Assembly: GCA_947629405.1 (NCBI GenBank)
Contig: CANRDL010000013.1
Location: 1-32,046, forward strand
Direction: 5' to 3'
DNA length: 32,046 bases
From: an uncultured Bacilli bacterium
GTDB taxonomy: Bacteria; Bacillota_I; Bacilli_A; RF39; UBA660
A program made the position numbers and the translations under genes. Below the pieces are notes generated by a model. That model made no database searches. It saw only the letters and a program-made list of their open reading frames with translations, and had not been told where the DNA came from. Of this stretch, positions 9,780 through 22,386 are shown piece after piece (within the stretch, counting starts at the first letter, position 1; each line of letters begins with the position of its first letter).

Positions 9780-9808
9780 AACATAAAAAATAGGTTTTAA
9801 CCTATTTA
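9780..9808 (-). terminator. Terminator at the spoIVA 3' end
   Basis: The inverted repeat AAATAGGTTT/TAACCTATTT (9788-9807) overlaps the spoIVA stop codon. On the minus strand it is followed by a short T-rich tract. Confidence 0.6.
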
Positions 9809-10921
9809 TATTACTAAAGCAATTAAATTATTAGCTCCTTTATTGACTATTTTAGTTATAGTTTTACCTAATTTATAACGAGTATTTTCTGGCATAATAG
9901 AAAGTTTGGCTTGGATTCCTTCTTTGACAATTTCATCTAAACTTCTTCCAAATATTTCACTTTTCCAAATATTAGATGGATTAGTTTCATAATCTTTCAT
10001 CAAGTAATCAATTAATTCTTTACTTTGAAGTTCACTACCAATAATTGGTTCAAAAGTAGATTCTACATCAACTTTTATTAAATGAATTGATGATGCTAAA
10101 GCATTTAATTTAACTCCATAACGGGAACCTTGTTTAATTATTTCTGGAGTTTCTAATTTCATTTCTTTTAAAGTTGGATACACAATGCCATATCCTGTAC
10201 TTTTGGCTTGTTTTAAAGCATTTTTAATTTGATCATATTCTTCTCTACCACTTGAAAATTCTTTAAATACTTTTAATAAAGAGGCTTTCGTAGCAATAGT
10301 TGATCCCATCATATTTTTTAAAACTTCATTATATAATGATGGATCACTATCAATAGAAAGAGTAATAATTCCTTCTTTAGTATCTAGTTCAGTAATTTTG
10401 GCCGTTTTTATATATTCATCTGCTTCAAAATGACTAATTATATTATCTACATCTTTAATTTTATCAACTTCAATAACACTTTCTTTTATTTTTTCAAGAT
10501 AGTGTTTCTTTATTTCATGATCATTGTCTAAAACATCTATCCATTCAGGAATATTAACATTAATTTGCATGACTGGGAATTCATATAAAGCCTTTTTTAA
10601 AATATCATAAATTTCAGTTTCATTCATTTTTTCAACACTTATAGGGACAACTGGTACATCATAAGTTTCTTTTAAATCATTAGATATTCTTAATGCTTTT
10701 TCTCCTTGAGGATCCGCACTATTTAAAATTACAATAAATGGTTTTCCCATACTTTTTAATTGACTAATTACTTTTTCTTCAGCTTCAATATATGAATTTC
10801 TTTTGATTTCACCAAAAGAACCATCACTAGTTATAACTATTCCAATTGTTGAATGATCTTTAATTACCTTTTCTGTTCCAATTTCCGCAGCTTCTATAAA
10901 AGGCATATTTTCATCAAACCA
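9806..10921 (-). CDS. spoIVA: SpoIVA, C-terminal 3' part (codons 123-492) of a split spore-coat ATPase gene
   Basis: SpoIVA is the ATPase that coats the outer forespore membrane in the mother cell and forms the basement layer of the spore coat. This part encodes FDENMPFIEAAEIGTEKVIKDHSTIGIVIT through the C-terminal RYKLGKTI...LIALVI. It closely follows the B. subtilis protein as I recall it (PFHEAAEIGTRKVIQEHSTIGVVIT; ARYKLKETL...LIAIIL). It has no start of its own: the first ATG (10906) lacks a Shine-Dalgarno and lies inside the conserved region, with homologous codons FDEN before it. The TGG at 10921-10919 is the copy shared with the N-terminal part at 22023-22021. Joined there, the gene is 122 + 370 = 492 codons in frame, with no frameshift or internal stop. 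As it stands it should not be translated; the intact 370-codon frame argues for continuing selection or a recent insertion. Confidence 0.95.
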   Translation of the reverse strand, partial: WFDENMPFIEAAEIGTEKVIKDHSTIGIVITSDGSFGEIKRNSYIEAEEKVISQLKSMGKPFIVILNSADPQGEKALRISNDLKETYDVPVVPISVEKMNETEIYDILKKALYEFPVMQINVNIPEWIDVLDNDHEIKKHYLEKIKESVIEVDKIKDVDNIISHFEADEYIKTAKITELDTKEGIITLSIDSDPSLYNEVLKNMMGSTIATKASLLKVFKEFSSGREEYDQIKNALKQAKSTGYGIVYPTLKEMKLETPEIIKQGSRYGVKLNALASSIHLIKVDVESTFEPIIGSELQSKELIDYLMKDYETNPSNIWKSEIFGRSLDEIVKEGIQAKLSIMPENTRYKLGKTITKIVNKGANNLIALVI

Positions 10922-10946
10922 CCGTGAACTTAAAAAGTGATACCTT
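10919..10946. other. Attachment site at the left end of the spoIVA element (recombinase side)
   Basis: The TGG core is on the minus strand at 10921-10919. Fifteen nt into the element begins AAAAGTGATACCT (10934-10946), a 13-bp exact inverted copy of the repeat at the other end. The outer flank is spoIVA codons FDEN. Distance and symmetry fit one arm of a large serine integrase attP joined to half of attB. Confidence 0.8.
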
Positions 10947-10981
10947 AGTGGCTAAAAAAATATGTATCTTATTAAATATAG

Positions 10982-12568
10982 TTAATCTAATACTTCACTT
11001 TTAGCAATTCTATAATGAATTTCTAATTTTTTATCTTTTGTTACATAGATTTTAGCAATTAATTTATTAAGCATTTCTTTAGTTGGATTTTTCATTTTTA
11101 AAAAGTTTTCTACTACAGTTAAATAGTCTTCTAAAACTACTGATGAATCACTTATTGAGTTTATTTCCCTTCTATATTTTTTTATTTTTGTATGGGCTAT
11201 ATTTATTTCTTCATCAGTTTGATTATATAACCTTTGGTAAGTATCAATACTAATGATACCATTAAATTTATCATCATATAATGAATCTTGTTTTAATTTT
11301 AGCTTTTCAATACTTTTAGTTAAAGTATCTATTTTCTTATTAAGTTCATTTTTAGGATTAACATAATCTTTTTTAATTATTTTGGCAAATTCTTCTTTAT
11401 CTTTCATATATTTCAAAGATAATTCACTAATTTTACATAAAATAGTCTTTTCGAGTTTTGTATAATTCATATAATGAGAGAAACATATACCATATTTACT
11501 AAACTTTCTATAATTGTTACAATTCATTGTTATCCGGTTTCTTTTTTTATCATAACTAATGCTCATTTTTGCACCACAGTCTTTGCAATAAATAAAATCC
11601 GATAATATATATTCTACATTCCTTCTATTTTTATTATAATTATTTGCTTTATCCTTAATTTGTTGAGCTAAATTAAAAGTTTCTTTACTAATTAGTGGCT
11701 CATGAGCATGTTCTTTTATGCACCATTCACTTTTAGCTACTTTTTTTCTTTTCTTAATTTTATAATTTATATTTTGAGAAGTATGTTGTATAAGAACTCC
11801 AGTATATATTGGATTTTTAATAATGTTTCTGACAGAACAATGTTTCCATATTTGCGGATGGTTACATTTTATTAAATTTTTTTCTTTATTCTTTAACATA
11901 ATAGGCGTTGGTATTTCTTCTTTAGTTAAAATTTCCGCAATTTTAGAACTACCATAGCCACTTATATATAAATCAAATATTTTTTTTACTATTGGAGCAG
12001 TTTTAGGATCAGGTATCAATTGATGTTTATTATCTGGATGGCGCATATAACCATAAGATGGAACACTACCACAAAACTTTCCATCTTTTTTCATTTGCAG
12101 TAAATTAGAACGAACTTTTTTAGATATATCTTTAGCATACATATCATTCATACTTAATTTAAACGGCATCATATCACTACCACTTGTTTCATAAAAAGTA
12201 TCTATATCATCATTTACAGCAATATATCTAATACCTTTTTCTGGAAAATAATTTTCAACATAATATCCTGTTTGAATATGATCTCTACCTAATCTTGACA
12301 AATCTTTAGTAAGTATCATATTTATACGATTATCTTCTATATCTTTGATTAATCTTTTAAACTCCGGACGATTAAAATTACCACCAGAATAACCATCATC
12401 TACATATTCATCAACTACATGTAGCCCATTTGCTTTTAAATAACCCATTAATAAACATCTTTGATTAGTGACTGACTCACTCTCTAAATCATCACCATCT
12501 TCTCGAGATAATCTTATATATAAACCAATTTTATAATTAATATTGTCATTATTGTAATGCCTATACAT
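10982..12568 (-). CDS. Large serine recombinase (site-specific integrase/excisionase of the spoIVA element)
   Basis: This 528-aa enzyme should cut and rejoin DNA at the element ends through a phosphoserine linkage. The resolvase-type catalytic domain (about 13-155) has the nucleophile Ser21 in YIRLSREDG, and the conserved DLSRLGRDH (89-97) supplies the active-site arginines. A recombinase domain follows (about 170-290; GSVPSYGYMRHP, NPIYTGVLIQ). A zinc ribbon has Cys328, Cys331, Cys350 and Cys362, and a Lys/Glu-rich coiled coil (about 395-470) is typical of this class, where it controls synapsis and directionality. The DGDDLESESVTNQR segment is typical of TnpX/TndX-like and related clostridial recombinases. 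It looks intact, ends 60 nt from the left attachment site, and its start overlaps the 41-aa ORF by 8 bp, so the two are translationally coupled. SpoIVCA (skin) and SprA (SPbeta) play the equivalent role in B. subtilis. Confidence 0.95.
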   Translation of the reverse strand: MYRHYNNDNINYKIGLYIRLSREDGDDLESESVTNQRCLLMGYLKANGLHVVDEYVDDGYSGGNFNRPEFKRLIKDIEDNRINMILTKDLSRLGRDHIQTGYYVENYFPEKGIRYIAVNDDIDTFYETSGSDMMPFKLSMNDMYAKDISKKVRSNLLQMKKDGKFCGSVPSYGYMRHPDNKHQLIPDPKTAPIVKKIFDLYISGYGSSKIAEILTKEEIPTPIMLKNKEKNLIKCNHPQIWKHCSVRNIIKNPIYTGVLIQHTSQNINYKIKKRKKVAKSEWCIKEHAHEPLISKETFNLAQQIKDKANNYNKNRRNVEYILSDFIYCKDCGAKMSISYDKKRNRITMNCNNYRKFSKYGICFSHYMNYTKLEKTILCKISELSLKYMKDKEEFAKIIKKDYVNPKNELNKKIDTLTKSIEKLKLKQDSLYDDKFNGIISIDTYQRLYNQTDEEINIAHTKIKKYRREINSISDSSVVLEDYLTVVENFLKMKNPTKEMLNKLIAKIYVTKDKKLEIHYRIAKSEVLD

Positions 12569-12686
12569 TACTTTTTCCTTTCTTAGACAATATTACATTT
12601 TTAATGTAATAATTATGAATACAACTTTTTAATATATCTTTTAAATTATTTCCATCTACGGCATAAAACTCTTCTATTTCATACAT
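12561..12686 (-). CDS. 41-aa ORF coupled to the recombinase
   Basis: I do not recognise this peptide (MYEIEEFYAVDGNNLKDILKSCIHNYYIKNV...). The ATG at 12686 follows GGAGG by 8 nt, an excellent ribosome-binding site; the longer frame upstream (MFFFFFLVH...) would read through a terminator hairpin and is rejected. Its stop overlaps the recombinase start by 8 bp, so it is the first gene of a two-gene recombinase operon. Small proteins encoded beside large serine recombinases can be recombination directionality factors (SprB of SPbeta is one), so this is a candidate. It could equally be a leader peptide that only couples translation. Confidence 0.65.
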   Translation of the reverse strand: MYEIEEFYAVDGNNLKDILKSCIHNYYIKNVILSKKGKSNV

Positions 12687-12711
12687 AGATTTATCCTCCG
12701 TTATCATAAAA

Positions 12712-12719
12712 ATTGTATG
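12712..12719 (-). promoter_or_regulatory. Sigma-E-like -10 element of the recombinase operon
   Basis: CATACAAT on the minus strand (12719-12712) equals the B. subtilis sigma-E -10 consensus as I recall it (CATACA-T). It lies 26 nt before the 41-aa ORF start and directly after a terminator. The -35 position falls in a pyrimidine run with no good match, and a sigma-A reading (TTGTTC, 20-nt spacer, TACAAT) is also poor, so this is a suggestion only. Confidence 0.35.
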
Positions 12720-12723
12720 AACT

Positions 12724-12772
12724 AAAAAAAAGAAAAAGAACAATGTTATATTTATTAGACATTATTCTTTTT
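12724..12772 (-). terminator. Hairpin separating the cargo operon from the recombinase operon
   Basis: Arms AAAAAGAACAATGT (12733-12746) and ACATTATTCTTTTT (12759-12772) pair with one mismatch around a 12-nt loop. On the minus strand a long T run follows. It would stop cargo transcripts before the recombinase. Confidence 0.65.
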
Positions 12773-12809
12773 TTAATTTAAATATTTTTGAAATATTTAC
12801 ATAAATTTA

Positions 12810-12845
12810 TTTTAAAAAAAGTAGATTATTTATGTAATCTACTTA
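12810..12845 (-). terminator. Terminator of the thioredoxin-like gene
   Basis: The inverted repeat AAGTAGATTA (12819-12828) and TAATCTACTT (12835-12844) overlaps the 3' end of the gene and is followed on the minus strand by seven T residues. With the hairpin at 12724-12772 it forms a double block. Confidence 0.75.
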
Positions 12846-13392
12846 ATAGTTTTTTCTTCTTAATTATTAAACCTGCACCTATAAGCAAACAAATACTAAC
12901 AATAACTATGATAACTTTTATAAAAACAGAAAATTTTTTTTGTTGATTATAAATACCTTTATTTTGTGCTATACAATCTTTAATATCTTCATTTTTTCGT
13001 ATTTTTGATACTACATCACAATAATCACTTGTATTTTCATAAGATTTTATTGCTTCTGTTAGATTTTCTTTAATTTTATTGTTGAATCCAATAAAGTAAT
13101 TAGTTCCTATTATAATTAAAGGAGTATCTTCTTTTTTTATATTTAATGCTTCTCTAAGTTTTTTGTTCAATTCTTTATTACTATCAACTTTAATATATTC
13201 TGGTCTAACACGATTGTTGTCTTTTAAATGTTGTTGTAAAAATTCTTTTCCTTTATCACAATTATTACAATTATCTTCATAAATGAAATATACTACAATG
13301 TTATTGTAAGAAGAGTTAGTTGCAAGTGCCTTTGATGTAGTTGGTAAACATAAAAGTACTAGAAGAAAAAACATATATAATAGTTTTTTCAT
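12826..13392 (-). CDS. Secreted membrane-anchored thioredoxin-like protein
   Basis: The 188-aa product has an N-terminal signal peptide (about residues 1-25), an extracellular thioredoxin-like domain with a redox Cys pair C42-N-N-C45 in VVYFIYEDNCNNC, the family's beta-strand/cis-Pro region (EDTPLIIIG), and a C-terminal membrane helix (about 158-176) followed by KKKK. It is therefore predicted to be held on the outer face of the membrane, thiol side out. Two further Cys (about 129 and 139) lie before the membrane helix. It is the last gene of the cargo operon, 53 nt after the giant secreted protein, so it may act on the folding or disulfides of its neighbours; that is inference. The ATG follows GGAG with good spacing. 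Confidence 0.8.
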   Translation of the reverse strand: MKKLLYMFFLLVLLCLPTTSKALATNSSYNNIVVYFIYEDNCNNCDKGKEFLQQHLKDNNRVRPEYIKVDSNKELNKKLREALNIKKEDTPLIIIGTNYFIGFNNKIKENLTEAIKSYENTSDYCDVVSKIRKNEDIKDCIAQNKGIYNQQKKFSVFIKVIIVIVSICLLIGAGLIIKKKKLLSRLHK

Positions 13393-13408
13393 TTTATCTC
13401 CTTATATT

Positions 13409-13447
13409 TTAAATAAAGGTGTAATGTCGTCATCACACCTTTATTTT
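13409..13447 (-). terminator. Hairpin between the giant-protein gene and the thioredoxin-like gene
   Basis: A 12-bp inverted repeat, AAATAAAGGTGT (13411-13422) with ACACCTTTATTT (13434-13445), overlaps the stop of the 2317-aa gene. The minus strand has no clear T run after it, so it may attenuate or protect the message rather than fully terminate. Confidence 0.5.
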
Positions 13448-16400
13448 ATTCTGAATATACAGTTGATCCTGTATGTTTTTCCCACCATTTGATTCCTTTG
13501 TTATAAAAATCAATGATATCTTGTTCAGTAAGAGCTTTGTCATTTTCTGCTAAAAATTCTTTTGGTGCTTTTATTTCAGTTGAATTTACATTTTCAAAAG
13601 AAACATTAAATGTATTATCTGAACTTTTTTGACTTGTTTTTATGCTCTTTATATATTGTTCATTATCATCTAGTTTAATTTCAACTTCTACTATTTCATT
13701 TAAAGCCCATTCAGCAGAACTATATTTTGAGTTTGAAAGATAATTCTTTTTTACCCAATCATTATATTTGTCTCTATTTAAAGTTGCTATATAAGTATGC
13801 TCTTTTCCTTCAGCTAATTTTACCTTATCTATAGCATTGATGTAAGTTTCTCCCATAACATCAGTTAGCATTGTAACTTCTTGAATAGCACGACCTACTT
13901 GAATTGGATGAATATATTCCCAATCATTGATATATACTTTTCCTTCTTCATGTTTAGTTTGTTTTCTTGTTACTACACTAACTTTAGAATCTTCTTTTCC
14001 AACATATTTTAAAGAGAATGTATATTCTTCTACATTATCTTTAGTTGACGTTAAATGAGTTAAACCTAATTCACTATTATATTTATAAGTAAATTCTTCA
14101 GTATAACCATTTATATGATTATCTTTTTTTACTGTAAAACTCTTAGAATTTAATGTGTTTTTTGCTGCTGCATTAACCTTTTCTTCTAAAGTTTCTACAC
14201 CACTATAATCAATTGTATATGTATTATCTGTTTTTTTATCACCATTATAATCAATAGCAATATTATAAACTTTTCCAGCTTCATTATTGATTTTTGAAGA
14301 TTTTATAGCTTCCAAGTTTAATTTCATAGTATTAGCACTACTTATTACTGCTACACCATTATTACTTTTTAAAGAATATAAATATTTCTCACTATTTTCA
14401 TTTGGATCTGTAACAGTTACTGTAGATACTCTATCATCAAATTTACTTGATGTTAAAGTCAATGGTAAATAAAATTTACCATCATCACTTTGACTTACTA
14501 ATCCAGAGTATTTATTCCCATTTTTAGTTAAACCTGAAATAGTTGCAGACTCAGGAACATTTGAAGGAACCATTTCAATTTGATTTATAAAAGTTAGTCC
14601 TGTTACACCTTGTGGGGCTTTTTCATAAGTTTTTCCATCTTTGTCTATATAAGTAACTTTAACTTTTGATAAATCTGCATCAAGTAAAATACTACCAAAA
14701 TCTTTGTTTTCATCACTATATTCAACAGCAATGTTTATATTAGAATTATTTGCTAAAGATATATTTGCTTTTGTACCTGATGCATCTTTTTCAAATTTAA
14801 TAGCATAATCATTTTCATTAAATGTATTACTATTTATTTTAATATTATCGTCTTCTTGTAAAATATTTTCAGAAGAAAATTTGCTAATAATTACTGCTGT
14901 TTTCTTTAAATCTTCTGAAGATAATTGTCTAAATGTGTTATAAGAAATATTGGAACCTGTAGCTAGTTCGTTAGCAACATAAATATAACCTTTATTAAAT
15001 TTATTACCACTATTGTTAAATGTTGACCACCTAATATCGACAATAGACTTATTATTACCATGATAATAAATAGCATAATCAACAGCATCCCCAGAATTAT
15101 TAATAACACATTGCCACATTGAAACATCTTGTGCATTTCCTGTTATATCAATTAATGCATTATTGCTTGAACCTTGAGTAAATTCCAAATTCAAACGAGA
15201 TAAGAATACATTATCTGCAGAAATTTTAATGTTTCCAACTTTAATTTTTGAAATTTCAGGTTTACCAATAATTGAAACTGATCTAGAAAGATTAATTTCA
15301 GGCATTACATTAGTCATATCAATTTCATTAATTGTATCAATATATATTTCAGTTATTTCTTGGTTTTCAAGTGCTTCTTTTAAAGCAGTTGCAGTTGTAA
15401 CTTTAGTAACATTTTTAGGTAATGATACCTTATATGAAGAATAATAAGTTTTATCATCTGTTGCTTTTAATTCGTCTTTTTGAACAATACCTTCTGGTAA
15501 TGTTGAATAATCTCCATTTCCATCATAAACTGTCTTATCTCTTGATTCAGTAAATCCTAGTAATTCATAAACATTGCCATCATAAGTAAGCTTATAAAAT
15601 GCTTTAAATACACTCTCTGGTGGTAAAGAAACTTTCTCATTATAATAATTGTAACTTACAAATTTTAAAATTTGACGCCCCTCATAATTATGGAAAATAG
15701 TCTCATATATTTTAGAATTGTTAGAATCATTGTAGTAATTATAATACTTATAATCAAGATCTTCTTCTTTGACATCACCGTAACTTCCAACAACTTTACT
15801 ACTATATTTTGTTATTTTCTCTTTTGTAACTCTTAGTGCCGTTTTAGATTCTTTGTCTTTTAAATCAACTTTTGTATTTTCTTTTTCTGCTTTAACTAAT
15901 GGTTTATTATAGTGTTCACTATCAAATGTCATATTTGATGCTGTTAAACTAGCACCATCTTTAACTTCAATACCAGCTTCAAATGATTCAGGGATAGAAT
16001 CACTATGTGTTATTTTTACCCCTGCTGTAGTTAATGAACCATTTTCAACAATAATTGCTTGGTTTTGAGAATTTTTTAATTCAATATTCTTAATAGTTAC
16101 AGCATTGCTTTTAACTGTAAATATTGTATTTACACCACTTCCAGCAGTAATAGTGTAACTACTAGAACCGCCATCTATTTCTACTTTTCTTTCAATATCT
16201 ATAGTTTTATCAACTTTGAAATTATCGCCTATAAATATATGTTCTGCCTTACTACTTAATGCATTTTCTAATTCTTGTTGTGTTTTAACAACAACCATAT
16301 CTGATTCAAATGTAAACTTGTAATCAGTTGGTACTTCTATATTACTTGCAAGTGAAATTCCTTGTTGAGCAGGTGCTTTTACAAGTGTAACTGTTTTTGA

Positions 16401-19400
16401 AACTTTTTCTGGATTAAATTTCAATGTGAAGCTTTCATATCCTTCTTTATTAGCAAGGTCACTTAAAGTTACATCTTCATCAGTTTTACCATCAAAATTT
16501 TCTTTTAATATTTTTGAGTATAATTCTTTTGCACCATCTTGAATTGCTTTCTTTAATTGTGCTTGGTCTTCTATACCATTTTTTGTAAATGTTTTTTCTT
16601 CTCCATTAACTGATAATGTTATTTCGTTAATTTCTTCTTTTGATAATATATAAGCTATTGCCCCTGGAATGCTTGTATCATTCATTCTTGATAATTTAGT
16701 TGTAGGATCAATTACTGTAATAGTAATTTCTCCACTATTTTCTACATAATCTTCGATTTTAAATTCACTACTAAAGTCTTCTGATTTTGAATCTTCTGTT
16801 TTATTTAAATCTTCAAGAACATCAGCTATAAATTTATCTGAATACAAATTCCAATGTGGTTCTAAAGTTATATTATCTTCTGTATCAGAAGTAATTACTG
16901 TACCTACAATATTTGTACCTTCTTCATTTGCCCAATAAGCAAAATTATGATATGAATCAGAAACCTCTGGTGTATCTTCTGGTAACATATCTTCTGTAAT
17001 TGTATCACCATCATATACTGTTAAACCTGTTTTTAGCCCATTAAATGTTAATTTATGTGCTTCTTCAAAGCTTAATTTACTATAATCAATTGTATATTCA
17101 TATGGTAAGAAGGCATCTCCATCTCCATCAAAATCGATTTCATATTTAATTTTCTTATCAGAACTATCATCTAATCTAAATAAAACCATTACCCAACCTT
17201 GTTCATATTCCTCAGAAGTTGGTTCATAAGTTTTTTTAACTTTACTTTCAGTATTTAATATTAATTTCCAAGTATTTTTATAATCTGCAAACCAATCTTC
17301 ATCTTTTGGAACTGATATTTTAATAGGTACAAAATATCCTTTATTATTTGTAAAACCACTTTTTAAAGTTTGTTCTTTAATTGTACCTTCAATTCCTTCA
17401 ATATAAGGTTCTATATCAGGTTGTTCCGCATTTAATTTATCTTTTACTTCATCTACTGTTGTTGAATCAAAATCATATCCTTCTAGTTCTTTTTTCTCTG
17501 GAGAATTATCATCTAAATTTTCTGTATCTAATAAAGCAAAACTAGCGCCAGAAGAAGAATCTTGAAATTTCAATTCACTATAATCAATTGTTACTGTATA
17601 AGGAGCATATTCCTCTTTATCCTTACCATCTAAATCAACTGTTATCGTAAAATACTTGTCTTCAGGAGCTACTGGAGAGCCATCATCATTAGCAGCCCTT
17701 AAAGCTTTTAAAATATATAATTCTTTATTACTATAAAAATCATGATCAAATATATCAATTGCTGATTCAGTTTCATCATTTTCATCATGGAAGAATTTAA
17801 CATTAATTGTATCTTCATCAATTGAACCATCTGGTCCCATATTTTCTGGAGCATTTGTTAATTTTAAAAGTAATCCCAAGTAATAAAGAACATGATCTGA
17901 TTCAAATGGATTCTCGTTATCTTCCCATTCTTCATCTGTAAATATTGGAAGTACTCCACTTACTTTATAAGTATTAGCTTTTTCTGGATCTAATTCTACT
18001 TTAGTATAATAGCCTTCTTTAGTAAGCCATCCATCATCAACAAATTGACTACCATCTTTAGAATCTAACCCTTCGATTGTAAATAATGATGATTTTTCAA
18101 AAGTAAGTTTGCTGTAATCTATTGTTACTAATGTAGGTAAATATTCATCACCTGTACCATCATAATCTACACTGTAATATAATTTACAATTTCCAGAATT
18201 AGTTTTGCATTTAGGATCTTCTGTGAATTGATAAAGAATTGTTAAACTATTATCTTCTTTGTCATATTCACTTTCCTTAAACGTTTTTTTAACATTTCCA
18301 CTGCCATTTAAATTATTGTCAGTTAAACGTGATATTTTAACATTTTCAGGTTTTACACCTTCTGGTAATTTAAAGGTAAAATCAAAATAGTATCCTGTTT
18401 TTTCAGCAAAAACATTATCATTAAGTACTTGTTCAACTAATTTACCTTCTAATGTATAATTTCCATCAGTTCCAGAAATTTTAACGCCTGAATTAACTTC
18501 AGATTTATAACCATATCCTTTTAATTGTTCTTTATCAGTTGCTGATGCACCATCAACTTTAACTTCAGCAATTGTTTTTTCTTGAAGTTTTAATTCACTC
18601 CAATCAAATGTAATTGTATATGGAGCATACTCTTCTCCGTCTCCATCCATATCTACTATAATTTCAAATGTTCTATCTGTAGCTTTTTTATCAAGATGCC
18701 TTAAAATATAAAGTACATCTTTTCCATCAAAAGATTCAGATGTAATAGTTTTACCTTCTTCTCCTTTATGGATAAATTGAACAGTTACTTTATCACTTCC
18801 ATTAGTTGTTTTATCTAAAGTTTTAATTACAAATGGTAAGTAATATCCTGTTGCTTCATCATCTTCAAATGGTTTTTTACCTTCTTCAAATGATTCTAAT
18901 ATTGGTAATAATCCTGTTACTTTTACAGTTGTTCCTGTAGTATCAAATTTAACATTAAATTTACTTGGTTCTGTCCAACCATAAGCTGTATCAAGTGCAG
19001 TCTTTCCAGATTCATCAATAGATTCTACACTAAATTTAGATGATTTTTCTAAAATTAAGTCTTTTAAATCAATTTCGTAATCAACTGGGAAATATTCATC
19101 GCCATCTTCACCATCTAAATCAACTGTTATTGTAATTGGTTTACTTTTATTGGCATCAGATGTAGAAAATAAAATAGTTACACCAGTTGAATCGGTAATT
19201 TTGCTTGTTTTATTACCCTTATTTCCAGGATATGTAACAGTTGCTTTATTATATAAACTTTCATCAATATTTTGCCCAACACTTAATAAGAAATAAAATC
19301 CTGTTTTTTCATCTTTTGAGAAAACATTTTCATTGATTTCTTGTTGAACAATAGTACCAGTTAATTTATATTTATTAGCACCATCAACATCTTTTAATTC

Positions 19401-20399
19401 ATAAGTATCTGCTGAACTTTTAGTGTATCCCCAATCTTTTGAGATACTTTCAACATCTGCTGTTGGAAGATCTTTTGTTGTTAAATTCATTTCAGATTTT
19501 TCTTGAAATTTTAACTCACTTAAATCTAATTTATATTCAGTTGCAGCATATTCATTTTTTTCAATATCACCATCAACATCTACAGTTATAGTAATTTGTT
19601 TATCAGCACTATCTTCCCAATCTTTCTTATCAATTGGTAATAATATAACAATACCTGGTGTCCCACTTTGAACATCAAATTCATTCCAAGTAGCTTTCTT
19701 TGTTTCACCATTTAAATTTGTTATTGTTATAATGGTATTTTTATTAGCTTCTGGCACTTCCACAATAGTAGCAAAATAATATTCTTCATCAGCGTATTTT
19801 TCATCATCTTCATCATTAAAATACAAGTCAGTATGAGATTTCTTCAATAATAAACCAGTTACTTTATTATTTTCTATTTTTACTTTAGCATCTTTTGCAT
19901 AAAATGTATCAGTTTTAAAATTTAATTTATCACTTAATACATTTTTATAAGTTGAGTATTTACTATCTTCTATGTCTGCAGAAAGTGTTGCTTTCGATTT
20001 TTCAAGGATATGATGCATATCAATCCATTTTACATTAAATTTACTAGGTATTTTCTTTGTTCCTAGTACATTCTTACCTTCTTTCCAACCAATTGGATTA
20101 TAATTTTCATCACGCTTTCTTTCAATTTGATATATAACCGCTTGTGATAAATCAGTTGGATTTTCTAATTTTAAACTTGTAGCTGCAATAATTAAATCTT
20201 CTTGGTGAATATTATAATTTGACGTAAATGCATATTCTCCAAGAATGTAAACATAACCGGCATCTGGTTGTATTTTACTTGCTTCTTCACCTAATTCATC
20301 AATACCCATTTCTCTTGCCAAAACTGATACTGAAGATATAAAGAAAGCTAATAAAGTAAATATAAATAATTTAGAATATTTTTTCATACATTTATTCAT
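13446..20399 (-). CDS. Giant (2317-aa) secreted repeat and beta-helix surface protein
   Basis: The product begins with a signal peptide (about residues 1-28, ...ISSVSVLA-RE). Residues ~30-1100 hold six degenerate repeats of about 155-175 aa, each ending in an acidic DxDGxxxxEY(A/F/L)P...(I/L)D(L/Y)S(E/K)L block (near residues 270, 425, 581, 741, 920 and 1086); a late related copy is IDYNGDKKTDNTYTIDYSG (near 2043). The acidic loops resemble Ca-binding loops, but this is unproven. An InlB-type B repeat (Flg_new: LTFNGLKTGLTVYDGDTI...FAYWANEEG...LEPHW) lies at about 1105-1180. Two right-handed beta-helix (pectin-lyase-like) regions follow, near 1376-1490 and 1670-1850, with stacked VxIxN-type strands. 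No LPXTG motif or C-terminal membrane anchor is seen, so it is released or held through partners. It starts 9 nt after the upstream anchored protein gene. An adhesin or surface role is inferred from the architecture. Confidence 0.9.
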   Translation of the reverse strand: MNKCMKKYSKLFIFTLLAFFISSVSVLAREMGIDELGEEASKIQPDAGYVYILGEYAFTSNYNIHQEDLIIAATSLKLENPTDLSQAVIYQIERKRDENYNPIGWKEGKNVLGTKKIPSKFNVKWIDMHHILEKSKATLSADIEDSKYSTYKNVLSDKLNFKTDTFYAKDAKVKIENNKVTGLLLKKSHTDLYFNDEDDEKYADEEYYFATIVEVPEANKNTIITITNLNGETKKATWNEFDVQSGTPGIVILLPIDKKDWEDSADKQITITVDVDGDIEKNEYAATEYKLDLSELKFQEKSEMNLTTKDLPTADVESISKDWGYTKSSADTYELKDVDGANKYKLTGTIVQQEINENVFSKDEKTGFYFLLSVGQNIDESLYNKATVTYPGNKGNKTSKITDSTGVTILFSTSDANKSKPITITVDLDGEDGDEYFPVDYEIDLKDLILEKSSKFSVESIDESGKTALDTAYGWTEPSKFNVKFDTTGTTVKVTGLLPILESFEEGKKPFEDDEATGYYLPFVIKTLDKTTNGSDKVTVQFIHKGEEGKTITSESFDGKDVLYILRHLDKKATDRTFEIIVDMDGDGEEYAPYTITFDWSELKLQEKTIAEVKVDGASATDKEQLKGYGYKSEVNSGVKISGTDGNYTLEGKLVEQVLNDNVFAEKTGYYFDFTFKLPEGVKPENVKISRLTDNNLNGSGNVKKTFKESEYDKEDNSLTILYQFTEDPKCKTNSGNCKLYYSVDYDGTGDEYLPTLVTIDYSKLTFEKSSLFTIEGLDSKDGSQFVDDGWLTKEGYYTKVELDPEKANTYKVSGVLPIFTDEEWEDNENPFESDHVLYYLGLLLKLTNAPENMGPDGSIDEDTINVKFFHDENDETESAIDIFDHDFYSNKELYILKALRAANDDGSPVAPEDKYFTITVDLDGKDKEEYAPYTVTIDYSELKFQDSSSGASFALLDTENLDDNSPEKKELEGYDFDSTTVDEVKDKLNAEQPDIEPYIEGIEGTIKEQTLKSGFTNNKGYFVPIKISVPKDEDWFADYKNTWKLILNTESKVKKTYEPTSEEYEQGWVMVLFRLDDSSDKKIKYEIDFDGDGDAFLPYEYTIDYSKLSFEEAHKLTFNGLKTGLTVYDGDTITEDMLPEDTPEVSDSYHNFAYWANEEGTNIVGTVITSDTEDNITLEPHWNLYSDKFIADVLEDLNKTEDSKSEDFSSEFKIEDYVENSGEITITVIDPTTKLSRMNDTSIPGAIAYILSKEEINEITLSVNGEEKTFTKNGIEDQAQLKKAIQDGAKELYSKILKENFDGKTDEDVTLSDLANKEGYESFTLKFNPEKVSKTVTLVKAPAQQGISLASNIEVPTDYKFTFESDMVVVKTQQELENALSSKAEHIFIGDNFKVDKTIDIERKVEIDGGSSSYTITAGSGVNTIFTVKSNAVTIKNIELKNSQNQAIIVENGSLTTAGVKITHSDSIPESFEAGIEVKDGASLTASNMTFDSEHYNKPLVKAEKENTKVDLKDKESKTALRVTKEKITKYSSKVVGSYGDVKEEDLDYKYYNYYNDSNNSKIYETIFHNYEGRQILKFVSYNYYNEKVSLPPESVFKAFYKLTYDGNVYELLGFTESRDKTVYDGNGDYSTLPEGIVQKDELKATDDKTYYSSYKVSLPKNVTKVTTATALKEALENQEITEIYIDTINEIDMTNVMPEINLSRSVSIIGKPEISKIKVGNIKISADNVFLSRLNLEFTQGSSNNALIDITGNAQDVSMWQCVINNSGDAVDYAIYYHGNNKSIVDIRWSTFNNSGNKFNKGYIYVANELATGSNISYNTFRQLSSEDLKKTAVIISKFSSENILQEDDNIKINSNTFNENDYAIKFEKDASGTKANISLANNSNINIAVEYSDENKDFGSILLDADLSKVKVTYIDKDGKTYEKAPQGVTGLTFINQIEMVPSNVPESATISGLTKNGNKYSGLVSQSDDGKFYLPLTLTSSKFDDRVSTVTVTDPNENSEKYLYSLKSNNGVAVISSANTMKLNLEAIKSSKINNEAGKVYNIAIDYNGDKKTDNTYTIDYSGVETLEEKVNAAAKNTLNSKSFTVKKDNHINGYTEEFTYKYNSELGLTHLTSTKDNVEEYTFSLKYVGKEDSKVSVVTRKQTKHEEGKVYINDWEYIHPIQVGRAIQEVTMLTDVMGETYINAIDKVKLAEGKEHTYIATLNRDKYNDWVKKNYLSNSKYSSAEWALNEIVEVEIKLDDNEQYIKSIKTSQKSSDNTFNVSFENVNSTEIKAPKEFLAENDKALTEQDIIDFYNKGIKWWEKHTGSTVYSE

Positions 20400-20408
20400 T
20401 CCTTTCTT

Positions 20409-21341
20409 TTATCTTTTCACCACTGTTGCAGTGACTACTGTTCCATTTGATAATTTTAGACTTGCTTGACTTCCACCAGAATTTACTACAGTTGATGAAA
20501 CAGAACCTTGATCTTTTCCAACTGGTGTACCATTATAAGTAAAACCTAAATAATCAGTAAAATTAGAACCATCTTTTTCTACTCTAAAATCGTATTGGAT
20601 TGCTCCACCAGCAACAGCTAATTCTCTTTTTGTTAAATAAATAATATAAGAAGGTTCTTTAGGTTGTTCTTGTTGTTGTCCTCCATTATTACCAGAATTT
20701 CCATTATTAGAATTTCTTACATTATGTTTGGTGCCACTCTTACTGCTAGAAGTATTTTGTCCTGTTTCATTTTTTGAACTTTCTTCTACTACTTCTTCTT
20801 CAGTTATAGTAACTTCTATAGAAGAACTATATCTACCATCTTTAGATTTTACAGTAATTATTACTTTACCTTTTTTAAGACCTTTTATATTACCATTTTT
20901 ATCAACTATTGCAATACTTTCATCACTAGATGAATATATTAAGTCTTTTTCACTTATTCCATTAGGTAATTTTAATATTTCAATTTTTTCTTGTTGGCCA
21001 ACATTCAAAACCATTTTCTTATTTAAATTAATACCATTACTCCAATGAGCTTTCAAAGTAATATTTTTAGTTATTTTAGTATTAAAATTAAATAATTTAT
21101 TTTTATAATACCAACCATCAAAGTAATATCCATCTTTAGTAGGATCCTTTGGTTTTTTTATTTTTTCATTTTCTTTTACCTCAATAGCTTTTACAATAGT
21201 TCCACCATCAGAATCGAACTTAACAGTATATTTTTTTATTGCACAACCTTTAATTAATAAAAAGATAAGAACAATTAAAATTAAAATACCAATTATAACC
21301 CCCATTTTTATTTTAGTTGTTTTTTTAGATTTATCTTTCAT
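20409..21341 (-). CDS. Membrane-anchored surface protein with InlB-type repeat and Ig-like domain
   Basis: The 310-aa product has a short cytoplasmic Lys-rich N-terminus, one membrane helix (about residues 14-32) and an extracellular part. That part holds an InlB B-repeat (YTVKFDSDGGTIV...DGYYFDGWYYKNK...LKAHW, about 36-100), a BIG2-like immunoglobulin fold (residues ~105-180; SSDESIAIVDKNGNIKGLKKGKVIITV), a low-complexity Ser/Asn/Gly/Gln linker (about 185-225), and a C-terminal beta-rich domain (about 225-310). The ATG at 21341 is chosen because AAAGGTGA lies just before it; an ATG ten codons earlier has no Shine-Dalgarno. It is first in the cargo operon and shares the InlB-type repeat with the giant protein that follows 9 nt later, which suggests they work together at the surface. 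Confidence 0.85.
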   Translation of the reverse strand: MKDKSKKTTKIKMGVIIGILILIVLIFLLIKGCAIKKYTVKFDSDGGTIVKAIEVKENEKIKKPKDPTKDGYYFDGWYYKNKLFNFNTKITKNITLKAHWSNGINLNKKMVLNVGQQEKIEILKLPNGISEKDLIYSSSDESIAIVDKNGNIKGLKKGKVIITVKSKDGRYSSSIEVTITEEEVVEESSKNETGQNTSSSKSGTKHNVRNSNNGNSGNNGGQQQEQPKEPSYIIYLTKRELAVAGGAIQYDFRVEKDGSNFTDYLGFTYNGTPVGKDQGSVSSTVVNSGGSQASLKLSNGTVVTATVVKR

Positions 21342-21648
21342 AACTTCACCTTTCACTTCCTTATAAATCATAGTAATGTTTCTAATTTATCATATGAAAA
21401 AATCACTTAAAGTTTAAGCAAATAATTTTTTTATTAAATTACCACTCCTTTTAAATAAAATAACAATTGATAAAAATTTCCTACATCTACATAAATTTTA
21501 ACATTGATGAAAGGTTTAGTCAATGAATAAATCTTTAATTATATAAGGAACTAAGTTCAATGTCTTTATCACAGTTATTATAAAGAATTTAATGTAATAT
21601 TTTTTTATAATGTTTAATAATTATCAGCTAAAATATTTTTTTTAAAGT
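21342..21648. promoter_or_regulatory. Divergent intergenic region between the cargo operon and XRE regulator
   Basis: This 300-nt AT-rich stretch holds no ORF that can be supported. A TATAAT -10 on the plus strand (21606-21611) fits the XRE gene, but no good -35 lies 16-18 nt before it. For the minus-strand cargo operon no clear sigma-A pair was found; TATGAT/TAAATT-like sequences near 21385-21400 are possible. The layout suggests that the XRE protein binds here and controls both directions. Confidence 0.4.
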
Positions 21649-21663
21649 TTGGAGGCGAAGCAT

Positions 21664-21960
21664 ATTAATTTAGAAAGCAAAGATATTTTGGCAATAAATC
21701 TTAAATATTATAGACATCTAGCAAAATTATCCCAAGAAAAATTTGCCGAAGCAATAGATACTAGTCTAATTTATATTAATCAATTAGAAAAAGGAAAAAG
21801 AAATACATCTTTGGAAATGTTAGATAGAATATCAATAAGTATTTCTAATTTATTGGGAAAAAACATTTCAAGTTCTGAATTAATTGCCTATGATGAAGAA
21901 AAAATTATTATTGCTAAAAGAATTGATGAAGTAAAAAAGAGTCAACAAATTAATTGTTGA
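21664..21960 (+). CDS. XRE-family helix-turn-helix regulator carried by the element
   Basis: A small Cro/C1-type HTH protein. ILAINLKYYRHLAKLSQEKFAEAIDTSLIYINQLEKGKRNTSLEMLDRISISI shows the full five-helix fold: SQEKFAEAI is helix 2 and the TSLIYINQLEKG segment the recognition helix. A short Lys/Glu-rich tail follows. The start is unusual. GGAGG (21651-21655) is followed at normal spacing by ATT (21664) in frame, with no ATG, GTG or TTG there; the in-frame TTG at 21649 overlaps the Shine-Dalgarno and the next TTG (21688) is too far away. An ATT start giving 98 aa is proposed. It is divergent from the cargo operon and convergent with spoIVA. It is clearly related to the regulator at 23069-23317, outside the element. 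Confidence 0.85.
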   Translation: MNLESKDILAINLKYYRHLAKLSQEKFAEAIDTSLIYINQLEKGKRNTSLEMLDRISISISNLLGKNISSSELIAYDEEKIIIAKRIDEVKKSQQINC

Positions 21961-21966
21961 CCTTTT
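21941..21966 (+). terminator. Terminator of the element's XRE gene
   Basis: The stem GTCAACAA/TTGTTGAC with a 5-nt loop (21941-21961) overlaps the stop and is followed by CTTTT. It ends transcription before the right attachment site and the convergent spoIVA segment. Confidence 0.6.
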
Positions 21967-21996
21967 AATTATTTTATAATTTCTTGTTCTAAAATT

Positions 21997-22023
21997 AGGT
22001 ATCACTTTTAGGTATACATCCCA
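21997..22023. other. Attachment site at the right end of the spoIVA element
   Basis: AGGTATCACTTTT starts at 21997 and is a 13-bp exact inverted copy of the left-end repeat. Fifteen nt separate AGGTATCAC from the core CCA (22021-22023, TGG on the spoIVA strand), the same distance as at the left end. The outer flank is the spoIVA codons ...VKTP(W). Confidence 0.8.
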
Positions 22024-22386
22024 TGGAGTTTTAACCATACGAGGGTTTCCATCCTCGTCTTCAAATCCCGTTGCTCCATCAACAATATAACCTACACAAT
22101 CAATGAGTTTAACATTTGCTTGAAAATCATCAATTTTAATATTAGCGCCAGTTGATGGAACAAATTTAGGTTCTGTAGTCATAATTGCTTTACCTTGAGC
22201 ACTTTGAGGTATTTCATCTAAACATCTTTTTTTCTCGTATTCATCTTCAATATTAGGTACTACTAAATTTTCGATAAATCTTTTAATAAATGTTGACTTA
22301 CCACTTCTAACTGCTCCAACTACTCCTAAATATATTTCGCCATTACCATGATGTGCAATGGACTCTAATATTTTTTCCTTTTCCAT
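22021..22386 (-). CDS. spoIVA: SpoIVA, N-terminal 5' part (codons 1-122) of the split gene
   Basis: This segment encodes the start of the spore-coat morphogenetic ATPase SpoIVA: MEKEKILESIAHHGNGEIYLGVVGAVRSGKST, with the Walker A motif at about residues 24-32 and Lys30 as the nucleotide-binding lysine, then DEIPQSAQGKAIMTTEPKFVPS (switch/sensor region) and LIDCVGY, a Walker B-like Asp96. It tracks B. subtilis SpoIVA residue for residue as I recall it, up to KTPW (residue 122). The ATG at 22386 follows GGAGTG by about 6 nt. In the integrated state the frame runs 44 codons into the element (DVYLKVIPN...) to a stop at 21880, giving a 166-aa truncated protein with an ATP site but no polymerising domain. 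The homologous continuation lies at 10918-9806. It begins 58 nt after the SpoVIF-like gene and has its own sigma-E-like promoter. Confidence 0.95.

Follow-up and report, generated by a model that had tools for sequence, protein, structure and literature searches.

What controls the large serine recombinase encoded in this DNA, and does the small open reading frame (ORF) in front of it take part in a developmental switch? The window, i.e. the whole stretch of 32,046 nucleotides that was analysed, is one contig of a 1.13-Mb draft genome (25.7% GC) of an uncultured Bacilli bacterium. A first-pass annotation, made from the DNA letters, had suggested that a sigma-E-like promoter turns on the recombinase operon in the mother cell only, and that a 41-aa protein encoded ahead of the recombinase sets excision over integration. 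Judged from the sequence, this developmental-switch interpretation is partly supported. The recombinase lies in an element that splits the mother-cell gene spoIVA. This split, which the first-pass annotation had not recognised, provides the setting that such a switch needs.

An element within spoIVA

The spore coat is built on SpoIVA, whose gene is known from other species to be expressed in the mother cell. Pfam analysis identified the two halves of SpoIVA in the neighbouring ORFs, one preceding the element and one following the recombinase.

22021..22386, minus strand: spoIVA 5' part, codons 1-122 (Pfam SpoIVA_ATPase positions 1-123, E 1.3e-53; joins the 3' part in frame)
9806..10918, minus strand: spoIVA 3' part, codon 123 to stop (Pfam SpoIVA_ATPase positions 127-237, SpoIVA_middle and SpoIVA_C)
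10919..22020, minus strand: spoIVA-intervening element, 11,102 bp (from the in-frame spoIVA join and the unsplit gene in G035)
21998..22020, minus strand: attL, element half, with the inverted arm GTGATACC at 22005-21998 (kept in relatives with both ends)
10919..10944, minus strand: attR, element half, from the arm GGTATCAC at 10944-10937 up to TGG at the crossover (kept in nearly all relatives)
Predicted attB junction (slash, crossover): CTCCATGG/TTTGATGA
Predicted attP junction: GGTATCACTTTT...TGG/GATGTATACC...GTGATACC

Joining the spoIVA flanks at CCATGG/TTTGATGA gives a 492-aa SpoIVA in frame, with no further change needed. Genome G035, which belongs to the same genus, carries an unsplit spoIVA (L118) with 94% identity across all 492 aa. 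TGG is left at both element ends, and the inverted arms GGTATCAC and GTGATACC flank the crossover, as expected for the attP of a large serine recombinase. As in an intervening element, a sporulation gene is split and its frame would be restored by precise excision at the predicted join. Since SpoIVA forms the coat base, no spores would form without excision.

The genome of the window also contains sigE, an unbroken sigK, sigG- and sigF-like genes, and spoIIID. A survey of yabG in the family found YabG retained, and spoIVA was undetectable in 34 of the 243 family genomes. Contigs C1 and C21 of genome G000 encode three RpoD-like sigma paralogues (L179, L180 and L184) with unusual N-terminal regions, besides a normal sigA; two of them lie about 1 kb apart on C21.

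Between the recombinase operon and the attL end are the following genes.

12826..13392, minus strand: thioredoxin/glutaredoxin-like secreted protein (weak: Pfam Glutaredoxin below the cut-off, PHROG thioredoxin E 4.9e-5)
13446..20399, minus strand: 2317-aa surface-type protein with signal peptide and repeats, identified as an ORF; no Pfam match
20409..21371, minus strand: protein with Listeria-Bacteroides repeat and Big_2 domains (Pfam)
21649-21960, plus strand (all other genes of the element are on the minus strand): XRE-type regulator next to attL

The XRE gene was considered as a conserved regulator and rejected, being absent from other elements. The cargo varies from element to element, with surface proteins in the window, a DnaJ-like ORF in a 3.1-kb element, and a helicase-like or ATPase-like ORF (the latter reading made by eye) in others. 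The small ORF and the recombinase gene recur in every element, even at 3.1 kb, and no other gene does.

The recombinase and its relatives

10982..12568, minus strand: large serine recombinase, 528 aa, with Resolvase, Recombinase and Zn-ribbon domains (Pfam; PHROG integrase E 2.7e-98)

About 60 bp separate the end of the gene from the attR crossover. The nearest solved structure is that of TnpX (2mhc), the best PDB match (E 5e-32), which covers the catalytic domain only. In the TnpX-type layout (Resolvase, Recombinase, Zn-ribbon, coiled-coil) the first three domains were matched by Pfam in the window recombinase. TnpX-type recombinases, which belong to Tn4451-like elements, excise without a recombination directionality factor (RDF).

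Relatives were searched for in 243 genomes of the host family and in a genome collection. Approximately 40 distinct close relatives, 59-88% identical, were found, nearly all in uncultured gut Bacilli. In all of those with a downstream flank on the contig, the sequence that comes next is spoIVA, beginning at codon 123. Recombinases of less than 50% identity were never inside spoIVA. Ten loci had both element ends on one contig; these elements measure 3.1 to 11.1 kb, and in 10 of 10 the ends join spoIVA in frame with both halves open. A phage origin was rejected: the viral collection held only distant recombinases (29-37%), none of them in spoIVA. Two draft genomes, those of L071 (labelled Tissierellia) and L070 (unlabelled), also have the module in spoIVA, with the most diverged peptides. 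By these two loci the module family reaches beyond gut Bacilli, unless the binning is wrong.

Other split sporulation genes occur in the family. At L051 (8280-15310) a second, different intervening element occupies the same spoIVA gene near codon 409; it has its own large serine recombinase (13719-15357) with a 91-96-aa ORF directly ahead, the latter giving a weak SHOCT_2 match. spoIVA is also broken near codon 391-415 in G184, G009, G191, G081 and G172. The yabG gene is split near profile position 110-125 in G060, G050 and also G056, and possibly in G042, G071 and G046. Its halves lie about 9-11 kb apart on one contig in G060 (C9:568-12649) and G050 (C1:19881-30234). The split yabG loci are probable yabG-intervening elements of this family.

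A small protein encoded ahead of the recombinase

12561..12686, minus strand: conserved 41-aa ATG ORF, candidate RDF (conservation, selection, profile search)
12695..12699, minus strand: GGAGG, ribosome-binding site of the 41-aa ORF (sequence; present in nearly all relatives)

The last 8 bp of the 41-aa ORF are shared with the recombinase gene, which starts at 12568. This arrangement, with GGAGG and CATACAAT at 12719-12712, is on the minus strand just as first described. The conservation of the frame, which had been left as a check, was confirmed: a small ORF is found directly ahead of the recombinase in every relative with upstream sequence. Its length ranges from 34 to 73 aa, mostly 46-73 aa, and across relatives the N-terminus reads MYExxEFYxxDGxDLKEVLKSCIYNYYxKN. 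The window's copy is internally shortened: it lacks the linker that connects this core with the stretch overlapping the recombinase start. For 28 distinct 30-codon cores, mean pN/pS was 0.36 in the true frame against 0.98-1.00 in the two other frames, which argues that the small ORF is a selected protein.

A profile of the small ORF run over the 243 whole genomes gave 12 matches (E 1e-31 to 3.5e-18), followed by noise only (E 5e-4 or worse, mostly with internal stops). The 12 genomes are exactly the 12 that carry the recombinase. Profile searches detected no relatives of the small ORF beside the distant recombinases (<50%; L021-L038, L075 and L079-L117). A small protein is thus encoded and conserved with its recombinase, as looked for in an RDF. 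Searches of Pfam, PHROG and further libraries gave no credible match of the peptide to a known RDF or any other family; RDFs are without common sequence (PMC5025042). AlphaFold predicted only a helix for residues 15-37, with moderate confidence (pLDDT 71). On these library searches, the peptide appears to represent a new small-protein family.

The promoter region

12712..12719, minus strand: CATACAAT, predicted mother-cell-type (sigma-E/K) -10 (CATAnnATT conservation)
12738..12740, minus strand: TTC, partial -35, 18 nt from CATA (spacing as in family promoters)
12724..12772, minus strand: A+T-rich hairpin and T tract, probably terminating transcription that reads through from the cargo (folding)

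CATAnnATT was found 24-36 nt ahead of the small-ORF start in 25 of 26 distinct upstream regions, where shuffled sequences lead one to expect 0.16. In the window, CATACAATT fits the CATAnnnT-type -10 of sigma-E/K promoters. The promoter was judged by the host family's own spoIVA and yabG upstream regions, with a -35 spacing of 14-16 bp. The former contain [GT]nATA-N15/16-CATAnnnTT in 36 of 51 cases (6 expected) and the latter CATATAATT with weaker -35s; the element -10 is compatible with both. An ATA-containing -35 is present in only one of the 26 element promoters, and the window lacks it. In the promoters of group A the spacing of TTC equals that of the TTC in the family's spoIVA (TTCATAA) and yabG (TTCTAAA) promoters, and group B has GTAA instead of TTC at the -35 place. 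The -35 whose absence had kept the first reading tentative is therefore absent as regards ATA, and group A has a correctly spaced TTC. The sigma-E-like character of the -10 is supported by its conservation across the recombinase clade, in a form that does not separate sigma-E from sigma-K. The timing of SpoIVA fits sigma-E better; the -10 sequence does not choose between the two.

A vegetative start had been named as the alternative. A promoter scan of the gap between the hairpin and the 41-aa ORF found no sigma-70-type promoter on the same strand, and a sigma-70 promoter for the operon was rejected. Other candidates were also set aside. A GTTC box, seen by eye in part of group A, resembles the core of a classical SpoIIID site on the other strand; because it breaks in other members, a SpoIIID site ahead of the promoter is not claimed. 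GTTC-N18-CATA as a general host motif had one exact genome match, the window's own. SpoIIIAA was tried as a source of sigma-E promoters and its family model found almost nothing. The spoIIID promoters have GTATAAA and TATATAATT, and therefore do not help with the CATA question.

The hairpin pairs 12772-12759 with 12746-12733, and its T tract runs to about 12724. Its fold of -11.4 kcal/mol is significant (z = -4.9 against dinucleotide shuffles). It was not called by a generic terminator scan, since the scan demands three G-C pairs. Eleven of 16 distinct group A promoters keep it, several members having changed on both sides of the stem (e.g. L040 and L045); it is missing from the remaining ones and from group B. 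The hairpin, first described as cutting off cargo transcription, probably does stop cargo read-through, and its distribution suggests that such insulation is common and not essential.

Spread between species

Across 31 loci the DNA identity of the module is not correlated with that of the flanking spoIVA (Spearman -0.02). At four loci the peptide-recombinase module is 100% identical and the spoIVA genes only 69-75% identical. Identical modules in diverged spoIVA genes indicate that the module moves between species, always into the same codon. Genome G008 contains an unsplit spoIVA and a module contig within one draft genome, and contigs of G002, G141, G190 and G233 break at this same spoIVA codon. 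Mixed populations would explain this coexistence and these breaks, and assembly effects could account for them too.

Perhaps these are self-spreading cassettes which use a single spoIVA codon as a refuge, the peptide-recombinase unit hopping among reduced-genome gut bacteria. Hosts would tolerate them since spoIVA is restored by the mother-cell switch, and the spore would carry them on in the germ line. The peptide would then be the founder of a new RDF family compatible with integration despite constant co-expression. We regard this wider proposal as one that could fall either way.

Proposed mechanism and alternatives

The layout resembles that of skin, in which skr lies ahead of spoIVCA under a sigma-E promoter. 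Mother-cell expression of an RDF and a recombinase, with restoration of spoIVA, is therefore the likeliest mechanism, and from the sequence we consider it probable that this spoIVA-intervening element is excised in the mother cell in such a manner. A mother-cell sigma factor (E or K) would read the CATACAAT promoter, while the hairpin ahead of it would keep out vegetative read-through from the cargo. One transcript would yield the small protein and then, through the 8-bp translational overlap, the recombinase. With the small protein acting as RDF, the recombinase would join attL and attR. The 11.1-kb element would leave as a circle, the 492-aa spoIVA frame would be restored in the mother cell only, and the forespore would keep the element.

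The main rival accepts the same developmental element and denies the peptide its RDF role, on the ground that TnpX, which is closest to the recombinase among solved structures, is of a type that excises alone. The promoter by itself would then set the timing, and the peptide might be a translational coupler, a recombinase regulator or an integration helper. Since its C-terminal end overlaps the ribosome-binding site of the recombinase, part of the conservation may serve translation. Integration is also hard to reconcile with an RDF and a recombinase on one transcript, although the modules are clearly mobile; the entry into new hosts of a module that never makes one protein without the other is a puzzle for the RDF reading. 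Against this rival, it is the N-terminal 30 aa and not the overlap that are conserved, under selection at the protein level; the peptide never occurs apart from this recombinase in the 243 genomes; and in skin, which is laid out in the same way, the RDF is proven (PMC6957869). We judge the rival unlikely. A chance origin of the 41-aa reading frame, which its shortness and lack of a family match might suggest, is a practically negligible possibility in view of pN/pS (0.36 versus about 1.0 in other frames) and the profile matches (E 1e-31 to 3.5e-18) in exactly the 12 recombinase genomes.

It could also be argued that the insertion merely inactivates spoIVA in lineages losing sporulation, the CATA box being fortuitous or vegetative. 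All genomes are draft metagenome assemblies in which no excision was seen, and some members of the family (34/243) are without detectable spoIVA. We nevertheless find this very improbable, given that in each of the ten two-ended elements both halves have stayed open and their join is exactly in frame, that sporulation sigma factors are retained along with SpoIIID and YabG, and that the -10 and the peptide are conserved over approximately 40 loci.

The approximately 40 elements in many genera of uncultured gut bacteria, including minimal 3.1-kb forms, offer a natural series for defining the essential parts of the putative switch. By this series they are the recombinase, the att sites and the small ORF together with its CATA promoter. 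The element, surface-protein cargo included, may also act in these organisms as a mother-cell/vegetative gene switch. The two proteins are in addition a small candidate RDF-recombinase pair for genome engineering.

Comparison with known intervening elements

Intervening elements are known in sigK, spsM, spoVFB, spoVR, gerE, yabG and kamA, and the sporulation elements bear the names skin, SPbeta, vfbin, vrin, gin and yin. A literature search of open-access papers found no report of one in spoIVA. The closest in layout is skin of Bacillus subtilis: the gene of its RDF Skr (64 aa) immediately precedes spoIVCA, overlaps it and is under a sigma-E promoter (PMC6957869). Both split a mother-cell sporulation gene, and both have a mother-cell promoter followed by a small ORF whose 3' end overlaps the gene of a large serine recombinase. 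They differ in target (sigK versus spoIVA) and overlap (101 versus 8 nt), skin is a defective prophage, and the RDF is proven in skin (PMC6957869). Skr and the window peptide are likened by gene layout. For Skr, SprB and CD1234 the predicted site of contact on the recombinase is its C-terminal coiled coil (PMC10747680). In skinCd of Clostridioides difficile a large serine recombinase (CD1231) is likewise combined with a small RDF (CD1234, under sigma-E and SpoIIID), and the recombinase gene immediately precedes the 3' part of the interrupted gene. The target there is sigK, the recombinase is constitutive and the RDF gene separate, whereas in the window both genes form one unit (PMC5025042).

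The promoter is most reminiscent of SPbeta in spsM, with recombinase SprA and the 58-aa RDF SprB. The mother-cell-specific sprB promoter has a perfect sigma-E/K -10, an imperfect -35 and a short leader, transcription starting 20 nt before the ATG. SPbeta differs in being a full prophage, in having its recombinase and RDF genes apart and in possessing a second, stress-inducible promoter (PMC4191935). Like the spoIVA elements, gin in gerE (girC/girX) has no phage genes, and combines a large serine recombinase with an RDF; it measures 28.6 kb, carries three recombinases and is described from one species, in contrast to the single recombinase, sizes down to 3.1 kb and many species of the spoIVA elements (PMC5595907). 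Lastly, yin in yabG of Clostridium botulinum shares a mother-cell target gene, a predicted small RDF and a CATA-type promoter, but lies in another gene and is reported to be unique to one strain (PMC10747680). The kind of element is thus already known, and what appears to be new, as judged from sequence comparison, is spoIVA as the target, the small-protein family and an unusually clear horizontal spread.
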